DNA from: Alistipes sp.
Lineage (GTDB): Bacteria; Bacteroidota; Bacteroidia; Bacteroidales; Rikenellaceae
Assembly (NCBI GenBank): GCA_017504265.1
Contig: JAFVRN010000020.1
Coordinates: 39,079 to 103,078 of the forward strand
DNA length: 64,000 nucleotides
Reading direction: 5' to 3'
A model generated the notes under the pieces. That model searched no databases. It was given only the letters and a program-made list of their open reading frames with translations, and was not told where the DNA came from. Shown piece by piece: positions 12,692-40,456 of the stretch. A program made the translations under genes and the position numbers. The stretch's first letter is position 1; each line of letters starts with the position of its first letter.

Positions 12692-12765
<74 letters not shown>

Positions 12766-38768: not shown

Positions 38769-38805
38769 TTTGTTGTGTGTGTGGCGGGGGCAGGGATTTT
38801 GTGTT

Positions 38806-38837
38806 GCAGGGCGAAGCCCTGCCACTGCGAAGCAGTG
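38806..38837. repeat. Two abutting GAA-triloop hairpins
   Basis: GCAGGGC-GAA-GCCCTGC (38806-38822) is followed without a gap by CACTGC-GAA-GCAGTG (38823-38837). Both are perfect palindromes with the same GAA loop, and the second ends exactly where the 9-bp repeat array begins. There is no T-run after either, so they do not look like terminators. Confidence 0.85.
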
Positions 38838-38970
38838 TGGGTTAGATGGGTTAAATGGGTCCAATGGGTCAGATGGGGATTTTTTCCACAGAACCCACTG
38901 AACCCACTGAACCCACTGAACCCACTGAACCCACTGAACCCATAGAACCCATATAACCCACTGAACCCAC
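38838..38970. repeat. 9-bp tandem repeats in two inverted blocks
   Basis: Left block 38838-38878: four and a half degenerate copies of TGGGTTAGA. Right block 38892-38970: nearly nine copies of AACCCACTG, six exact, two variant (AACCCATAG, AACCCATAT) and a partial one. The TGGGTT cores of the left block are complementary to AACCCA of the right, so the blocks can form a long imperfect hairpin across a T-run at 38880-38885. Translation gives only WVQWV/NPLNPL-type low complexity, not a gene. Confidence 0.85.
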
Positions 38971-38982
38971 AACACTCGGGAT

Positions 38983-39125
38983 AATCAGCGGTTAAACCCT
39001 AATTTTTGTCAGAAGGGGTTAGCTGTGGCCTCGATTAAGAGATTGCCCCGGATGGATAGTACCCAGCGTACATTCCATTCGGGGCAATGATTGAGAGGTC
39101 GCAGATGACCCCTTATCACAAAAAT
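38983..39125 (+). repeat. Structured repeat element, copy 1 (124-nt hairpin plus conserved 5' linker)
   Basis: A conserved linker (AATCAGCGGTTAAACCCTA) precedes a long hairpin at 39002-39125. From outside in: ATTTTTGT/ACAAAAAT (8 bp), a CAG/ATC internal loop, a 20-position stem (39013-39032 with 39095-39114, one G-A mismatch), an asymmetric internal loop beginning with tandem G-A juxtapositions, a 15-bp stem (39042-39056 with 39074-39088), then GTAC/GTAC closing a CCAGC loop. Non-Watson-Crick stem pairs on the + strand are G-T apart from that single G-A. It is not a terminator (no T-run) and does not encode protein. Confidence 0.8.
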
Positions 39126-39126
39126 C

Positions 39127-39269
39127 TCAATCAGCGGTAAGACCCCAATTTTTGTCAGAGCGGTGCAGTAGTGGCGCTGACACGAGAAAGGGCGGATGGG
39201 ACATACTAAGCGTATTTCCCATTCGCCCTTTGGACTGAAGCGTCGCTAATGCGCCGCTATCACAAAAAT
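39127..39269 (+). repeat. Structured repeat element, copy 2
   Basis: Same architecture as the preceding element: linker CAATCAGCGGTAAGACCCCA, hairpin at 39148-39269 with ATTTTTGT/ACAAAAAT ends, identical CAG/ATC internal loop, a 20-position stem (39159-39178 with 39239-39258) with the G-A mismatch at the same position 10, tandem G-A juxtapositions, a 15-bp stem (39187-39201 with 39217-39231), and ATAC/GTAT closing a TAAGC loop. Stem sequences differ from copy 1 but pairing is kept by compensatory changes. The end touches the stop codon of the convergent C1B peptidase gene. Confidence 0.8.
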
Positions 39270-40456
39270 TATAGGTTTAGCTTCTTACGAATATCCTTTG
39301 GTATAGCATTCTTGTGAACAACAATGTTCATAGTCTTATAGCGCACGAATGCCTTTGATGCATACCAGATACCCTTATATGTACCGGCCTCACCCCATGA
39401 GTTCTTAACCATGTAGTACTCTACGCCATTCTGATCCTTAGCGATACCGTAGATCTGCATACCGTGATCATCGGTAGTCTCCCAATTATCATAAGCGAGC
39501 TGACGCTCCTCCTGAGTACACCACTTCTGAGCCGATGGCTTAGGAGTATTCTTCTTCTCCTCCTCTGTAAGGTTGAGCCACTTTGCCATATCCGAGCCCT
39601 GAAGGTCGGCACTTGCTGACTCGTCAGGAAGCACAGCTGTACCCATACGAGTAAAGCCCTTCTCGCTAACATCGCTACCCCATGCAATAGTGTAGCCCTC
39701 CATAATAGCATTGTCGAATACCTCCATCAACTCGTCGATAGGGAGGTTATACGACTGTGCCCAGCGCCAGTTATCTTGAATCTCAAGGATGAATGGCTCG
39801 TAGAAGGGGTGGTGTGTGTAAGAGGTCAATGACACATAGTCAGAGGCATTCAAGCCCAATGACTCATAGAATGACTTTGGAGTATACTCCTTACCGTTAT
39901 AGGTGAATGACTCGGGACGCTCACCAAGATAGATGTCGTGGATAGCCTCAATAGCCTGCTTCCATAGTGGCTGACCATCGGGGCTGAGCTGCAAGCTGCG
40001 GTGTCTGCCCTTAGCAATAGCTGCTACAACAGCATCGCTAACAGCCGAAAGCTCGTTGTGGTTGCTCAACTCCTTACCATACATTACACCGGGACGCATC
40101 TCAGCCTCGGGAACAAGACCAAAGGCCTCCATACCGTAGATAACATCGTAGAATGAGCCGCCCTGCGAGAAAGATACATCGCCGTGTGTACGCACTGCCT
40201 TGTCGGCACGGTCAAGATAGGTGTTGTGAACGAGATACATCTCAGAGAAGTCGAACTCACCCTTGCCCATACGCAAAAGCTCCGACTCGATGAATGCCAA
40301 TGACGAATAGCACCAGCAAGTACCAGCCTGATTCTGATTCTTGATGCTCGTAATAGGATTCTCCTTTACTACGGTAAACTCAAGAGTGGTCTCCTCCTGA
40401 GCCATAGCACCTGTCGCCATAATGATAGCGAGTGCCAAACCAAAGATTTTCTTCAT
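39269..40456 (-). CDS. C1B-family cysteine aminopeptidase (bleomycin hydrolase/PepC-like), exported
   Basis: A 395-residue papain-fold peptidase with a signal peptide (MKKIFGLALAIIMATGAMA-Q). The catalytic Cys47 lies in NQAGTCWCYSS, with the oxyanion Gln just before it; the His is in DDHGMQIYG and the Asn in VKNSWGE. Family C1B members are usually cytosolic homohexameric aminopeptidases; the signal peptide places this one in the periplasm or outside, as in other Bacteroidota. The C-terminus reads KKLNL. The downstream end abuts the structured repeat elements. Confidence 0.92.
   Translation of the reverse strand: MKKIFGLALAIIMATGAMAQEETTLEFTVVKENPITSIKNQNQAGTCWCYSSLAFIESELLRMGKGEFDFSEMYLVHNTYLDRADKAVRTHGDVSFSQGGSFYDVIYGMEAFGLVPEAEMRPGVMYGKELSNHNELSAVSDAVVAAIAKGRHRSLQLSPDGQPLWKQAIEAIHDIYLGERPESFTYNGKEYTPKSFYESLGLNASDYVSLTSYTHHPFYEPFILEIQDNWRWAQSYNLPIDELMEVFDNAIMEGYTIAWGSDVSEKGFTRMGTAVLPDESASADLQGSDMAKWLNLTEEEKKNTPKPSAQKWCTQEERQLAYDNWETTDDHGMQIYGIAKDQNGVEYYMVKNSWGEAGTYKGIWYASKAFVRYKTMNIVVHKNAIPKDIRKKLNL

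Follow-up and report, generated by a model that had tools for sequence, protein, structure and literature searches.

A tandem hairpin pair at the stop codon of a peptidase gene in Alistipes: candidate right end of a mobile repeat constrained on the antisense strand

The window studied here, a stretch of 64,000 nucleotides from an Alistipes sp. genome, contains two adjacent hairpins, units A and B, the second of which abuts the stop codon of a C1-like peptidase gene read from the minus strand (Table 1). Set against nine named genomes, the topA protein of the host came closest to that of an Alistipes-labelled MAG (68%, with 51-57% for the rest), and the host is thus probably a member or near relative of Rikenellaceae. 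A tandem pair of structured elements had been proposed at this place from the letters of the sequence alone (hereafter the original prediction), and the two units are indeed there, with the common features that had been described, namely a AATCAGCGGT.A.ACCC linker, ATTTTTGT/ACAAAAAT ends and a CAG/ATC loop. The hairpins are real, but the extent given to the feature was too short: similarity to other places in the same genome starts at 38786-38804 and stops at 39269-39271. The statement that no protein gene is adjacent was mistaken, since the peptidase gene adjoins the pair directly.

Table 1. Coordinates of the repeat, its parts and the adjoining gene in the 64,000-nucleotide window.
Feature	Position	Strand	Remarks
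Whole composite repeat	38786..39270	+	left edge varies with the copy compared (38786-38804)
Two short palindromes, TTGCAGGGCGAAGCCCTGCC and ACTGCGAAGCAGTG	38804..38837	+	same module precedes many copies in the own genome
Inverted tandem 9-mers, TGGGTTAGA type then AACCCACTG type, flanking GGGGATTTTTTCC	38838..38969	+	
Leader CAACACTCGGGATAATCAGCGGTTAAACCCTA	38970..39001	+	on the 5' side of unit A
Hairpin unit A, 124 nt	39002..39125	+	antisense to the adjoining gene; covariance model R1 scores 127.9 bits (+) and 64.1 bits (-)
Apical helix P3 of unit A, top GTAC/GTAC	39042..39088	+	
Inter-unit linker	39126..39147	+	contains AATCAGCGGTAAGACCC at 39129-39145
Hairpin unit B, 122 nt	39148..39269	+	R1 scores 122.4 bits (+) and 63.5 bits (-); abuts the stop codon
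Stop codon TAA of the peptidase gene	39269..39271	-	one base common with unit B
C1-like peptidase gene	39269..40456	-	stop abutted by the element; PF03051 match of the same gene in locus L001

On the plus strand, unit A has a minimum free energy of -73.0 kcal/mol (z -9.1) and unit B one of -73.4 (z -9.0), values equalled by none of 200 shuffles; the minus-strand folds are weaker (-58.4, z -5.9, for unit A and -62.2, z -7.0, for unit B), likewise with 0 of 200 shuffles reaching them. When the two units are aligned with each other, both partners have changed in 15 of the 48 consensus pairs. Nine of these pairs belong to the lower stem, for which eight double compensatory changes had been counted before. 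The earlier count of eight G-T pairs needs correction, the folds giving 5 and 4 G-U pairs, with one extra C-T mismatch in unit B; the G-A mismatch shared by the two units is present as described. A scan of the window with the covariance model R1, described below, returned units A and B only.

The hairpins form the right end of a mosaic repeat of about 485 bp, and the right edge of this repeat is the stop codon itself. In a comparison with 62 loci of the same genome, some of them overlapping, the left part of the repeat was matched by 23-31 loci, the hairpin part by 37-46 and position 39281 by none. Many copies in this species are preceded by the leader, the inverted 9-mers and the short palindromes, and the exact linker was confined to the species among the loci compared; leaders and short repeats differ in other species. 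The leaders and the letters of the outer stem are largely species-specific, a pattern that suits spread within species. A second type of leader occurs in the own genome at eleven contig ends on ten contigs (C2, C3, C4, C5, C6, C14, C33, C36, C44 and C45, which end within it), and such repeats thus limit the assembly of this genome. On contig C41 (locus L302, about 912-1500) lies a frameshifted gene whose N part is TIGR02436-like (below cut-off) and whose C part matches the TIGR04258 four-helix-bundle suffix (above cut-off). It is flanked by low-complexity repeats and by a leader of the second type that carries a truncated hairpin.

The original prediction had suggested a covariance model and a genome search as a check. 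We built such a model, R1, from 25 copies (alignment A3). In the own genome it gave at least 144 matches with both strands counted (150 of 590 candidates scored), in at least 86 distinct places and at least 53 arrays, a few of them partial; blastn gave 61 matches. The idea of a repeated hairpin element is borne out by these numbers. Across 61 genomes of the genus, the own genome included, blastn found matches in 17 and R1 in 39, with 22 genomes showing no R1 match; the per-genome counts are lower bounds, and 8 of the 61 genomes stand at at least 58, the number scored per genome. Among 198 genomes of the order, again including the own, R1 matched two others, both of another family. In one of these (G211) there are three copies that share the CAG/ATC loop; two form a tandem with a spacing of 149 nt, and one of the three stands 3 nt from the stop of an ORF of 498 codons. 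In the second (L281), R1 gave one weak match, which lacks the stop-codon placement and which we took as chance. On 620,537 bases of unrelated loci R1 gave no match. A scan of genome contigs for the linker pattern returned at least 116 loci that look like chance: none was among the blastn matches, and R1 found nothing in the 83 that were scanned with it.

The hairpin is preserved by pairing rather than by sequence, and the constrained strand is the antisense strand of the adjoining gene. In A3, which was aligned by MAFFT without structure, 96.6% of cells are paired, 31 of 47 pairs show both-sided changes and the covariation score is 0.477, compared with 79.9%, 20.6 pairs and 0.183 in shuffled controls and at most 48.8%, 12 pairs and 0.122 in slid controls, the structure having been derived from A3 itself, which favours the unslid version. 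A weaker measure, the number of further pair types, stood at 62 against a shuffle mean of 55.2 and was equalled by 6 of 500 shuffles. The terminal stem takes part in the covariation, with both-sided changes in 4 of its 8 terminal pairs and the other 4 invariant; type I hairpins end in ATTTnTTG/CAAnAAAT, and the bases TGTCAGA/TATCACA are invariant columns of A3. The strand preference was assessed on 59 non-redundant copies out of 173 full-length ones, oriented by homology to the seeds and not by energy, with incomplete and N-containing copies left out. Their plus-strand folds hold 289 G-U pairs and their minus-strand folds 64, a 4.5-fold difference, and the plus fold is the more stable in 55 of the 59; R1 scores full type I copies about twice as high on the plus strand as on the minus strand. 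One G-U pair of the apical helix is kept in 25 of 25 A3 sequences, and the internal loops stay in place. The G-U excess on the plus strand and the invariant G-U pair argue against a cruciform or a template switch and in favour of a single strand that is read, whether as RNA or as single-stranded DNA, in line with the plus-strand selection that had been proposed from the two copies in the window. One unit elsewhere (L007:1646-1767) is chimeric, joining a B-type 5' half to an A-type 3' half that do not form the long stem; either a recombination event at the conserved top or a join made in assembly would explain it.

The placement seen at the peptidase stop is shared by most of the arrays examined. 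We grouped 212 copies from the fetched loci, those listed first by the searches together with their neighbours, into 143 arrays, of which 139 were unique and had enough flank. In 106 of the 139, a minus-strand ORF 80 or more codons long had its stop between -4 and +6 nt of the array's right end, compared with 486 of 26,015 random positions (1.9%). By reading, a short hairpin remnant intervenes in seven of the remaining 33 arrays; in some the hairpin contains the stop, and some of type II stand just upstream of a start codon. Where such remnants of another hairpin lie between the stop and the intact hairpin (L010, L016, L018, L020, L217, L221 and L243), it is as if one element had replaced another. 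The gene to the right is on the minus strand in 102 of 113 arrays and on the plus strand in 11, six further arrays being omitted for having no gene on one side. Those 102 arrays provide an internal control: 81 lie at -6 to +8 nt of the right gene and 4 within 8 nt of the left gene, in intergenic spans with a median of about 470 nt. Of the left genes of these arrays, 59 are convergent and 43 co-directional, and their occurrence in either direction indicates that the tie is to the right gene. Element-side stops in three related species are TAA in 66 cases and TAG in one, compared with 79 TAA, 60 TAG and 32 TGA among other long ORFs, a background that includes spurious ORFs; the corresponding figures in five type II genomes are 6 TAA, 10 TAG and 3 TGA, compared with 42, 23 and 20. 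Beside type I elements the stop is almost always TAA, even where the empty ortholog has TAG.

Comparisons of orthologs with the element (filled) and lacking it (empty) bear on the fate of the protein. Outside the peptidase, 16 of 17 filled/empty rows share the same end codon and the filled protein is two residues shorter in one, the rows being partly dependent on each other (two are repeats, L282 being the same place as L196, and three share the empty locus L036). An empty TAG corresponds to a filled TAA in 4 of 5 rows, and an empty TGA to a filled TAG in the single row of that kind; in one of the four TAG-to-TAA rows (L204/L230) the partner carries a degraded hairpin. For the peptidase, the element lies 0-10 nt from the stop in 8 of 30 ortholog loci (L165, L169, L171, L172, L179, L186, L190 and L192; the other 22 are empty), among close and distant relatives, and two types of element follow the peptidase stop in close relatives, by reading, which fits turnover at this site. 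Filled and empty peptidases are equal in 23 of 36 pairs, and the filled protein is one residue shorter in 13 of 36; filled/filled pairs are equal in 56 of 69 and otherwise differ by one or two residues. As one genome per species was compared, movement of the element is something we infer from these states, and the empty ones may be losses.

We propose a non-autonomous mobile repeat that folds as a single strand and enters at stop codons, with the pair in the window as its right end; in this reading we place about as much belief as doubt. The strand bias, the conservation of structure and the species-specific versions agree with a non-autonomous element whose mobile form is a folded single strand. 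Copies would spread in this folded form, either as DNA or as RNA later copied to DNA, and a putative structure-recognising enzyme would join the folded strand to the stop codon. The gene would keep its protein and gain a new 3' end, and, more tentatively, the apical helix with its T-rich flank may partly replace the native terminator of the empty orthologs.

Among the closest known repeats are REP/BIME sequences with RAYT. These, too, are imperfect palindromes that occur interspersed and in high copy number, frequently as mosaic clusters, and of which one strand is recognised. A REP is a short palindrome of 20-40 bp tagged GTAG or CGTC at one end, according to one account (PMC3733652), whereas the present element is a hairpin of about 124 nt that has no constant GTAG or CGTC tag and is tied to the stop codon. 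The Y1 (IS200-like) REP-associated transposase was found in 0 of the 61 genus genomes, the own included, with a model that finds it in 5 of 14 control genomes. Rfam gave no match at gathering score in the region, in agreement with the original prediction, which had recognised no described family; the only match in the window was one tRNA at 12692-12765, and a relaxed search of the region and five related loci had a best E of 0.068, with everything far below gathering. A phage- or retron-like RNA had also been considered and finds no support, and neither does a DGR element: blastn found no match in phages and plasmids, viral contigs (IMG/VR) had none to the apical-core pattern in an exact and narrow search, and RVT_1 was absent from the own genome, which is 89.6% complete. 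RVT_1 occurs in 20 of the 61 genomes, in 5 of 18 with at least 40 element matches compared with 7 of 22 with none, and does not track copy number; completeness of these genomes is 63-99%, at which a rare gene could be missed. The sole protein lead for a mobiliser is the frameshifted four-helix-bundle gene of L302, of which we found no relatives beside the other loci searched or in viral contigs, in a search that reaches close relatives only. No clear target-site duplication was seen at the junctions, which were read by eye and have varying left flanks. In the literature, covered mostly through open access and hence weak evidence of absence, we recognised no description of such a Bacteroidales element.

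The alternative that survives best, although we consider it unlikely, is that the hairpin is a host 3'-end RNA module, which terminates or protects transcripts past the stop and is copied among genes by gene conversion and not by mobility of its own. The arrays do lie mostly 3' of genes. In the sense of the gene, a GC-rich apical helix begins about 40 nt past the stop side, as in intrinsic terminators, and is followed in part of the copies by a T-rich flank: the 9 nt past the helix contain a mean of 3.8 T, compared with 1.8 on the other side (49 copies, 10 of 59 having been dropped), and at least five T in 17 of 49 copies, compared with 1 of 49. A terminator-like site lies within 130 nt in 18 of 22 empty and 4 of 8 filled peptidase orthologs, inside the element in the filled ones, and the native terminator of the empty orthologs is found 19-95 nt past the stop. 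A general terminator scan, too insensitive to be informative, placed a site inside 4 of 91 filled arrays, compared with 24 of 234 controls. The constrained strand is, however, antisense to the gene, the helix belongs to a larger hairpin constrained on that other strand, and a third or so of the genus genomes (22 of 61) have no match to the element. The placement at two of the host genes also speaks against a module of this kind. Ten host genes were checked, namely purB, lpdA, greA, aspS, mreB, sufB, gdhA, recR and the genes for the C1-like peptidase and an Omp28-like protein. Five hairpins stand at the mreB stop in L206, 35 nt before a gene read as mreC from its translation, and three at the sufB stop in L210, before a gene read as sufC in the same way; a strong terminator should do harm between such operon genes, which argues against one there.

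A MITE of the ERIC/RUP/Correia type with a TA target, for which stop codons supply the TA and copies elsewhere are purged, is in our view somewhat less likely again. A 5'-TA at the termini is given for Correia, ERIC, RUP and CIR in one report (PMC2229807), and the ends of the present element read TA-ATTT...AAAT-TA in part of the copies. Beside type I elements the stop, TAA, amounts to TA followed by the element's first base; beside type II it is often TAG. Like ERIC, RUP, Correia/NEMIS and the YPAL MITEs, the element is within 100-200 bp, self-complementary and intergenic. With spans of some 470 nt to choose from, however, a TA target by itself should not place 81 of 102 arrays at one stop but 4 of 102 by the gene on the other side, and several off-stop junctions (L019, L203, L242 and L247) have no TA, by reading. 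The pair in which an empty TGA equals a filled TAG also fits poorly. The terminal stem, moreover, covaries and is not fixed, one strand is favoured and the placement at stops is codon-precise, all of which set the element apart from these MITEs.

Codon precision has led us to weigh a bolder form of our own proposal, improbable as we judge it, in which the element homes on stop codons as such and insertion starts at the level of the mRNA. Messages are cleaved in the A site when ribosomes stall. Under stalled ribosomes, 3' ends from such cleavage at the stop might be joined to the element or used for priming, followed by copying to DNA and recombination with the gene, the folded plus strand then being the DNA copy. 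Insertion from the mRNA level would explain both the codon precision and the match between the stop and the end of the element.

We give very little credence to an attC-like recombination site, that is, a folded bottom strand 3' of the stop serving as substrate for a tyrosine recombinase. In attC sites of integrons, it is the bottom strand that folds, directly 3' of the stop codon, and structure is kept while sequence varies around an R-box consensus. The element resembles them in strand, in place and in a structure that outlives its sequence, and integrase-model matches below cut-off, as ordinary tyrosine recombinases give, occur in 61 of 61 genomes. No genome of the 61 has an integron integrase above the TIGR02249 cut-off, however (nor has any of the 14 controls, by which the sensitivity of the search is therefore not shown), the conserved TGTCAGA/TATCACA differ from the R-box consensus, and the genes concerned are resident ones and not cassettes in an array. 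Least credible of all is a neutral repeat whose palindromes are corrected by template switching at replication, which would make the covariation an artefact. Long inverted repeats can undergo such correction, but it restores Watson-Crick pairs and should leave no strand bias, which the excess of plus-strand G-U pairs, the one conserved throughout A3 and the retained internal loops contradict.

As a whole, the interpretation offered in the original prediction is partly supported. Interspersed palindromes are common in bacteria, but a stop-abutting, codon-precise, antisense-strand, strongly covarying palindrome family fits no described class that we found. If the element moves, it would be an unusual kind of mobile repeat, offering a testable case of a mobile sequence that joins the ends of housekeeping genes and leaves the protein unharmed. 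The family bears on how attC-like sites may arrive behind stop codons, and it points to a putative structure-specific enzyme in Bacteroidales.
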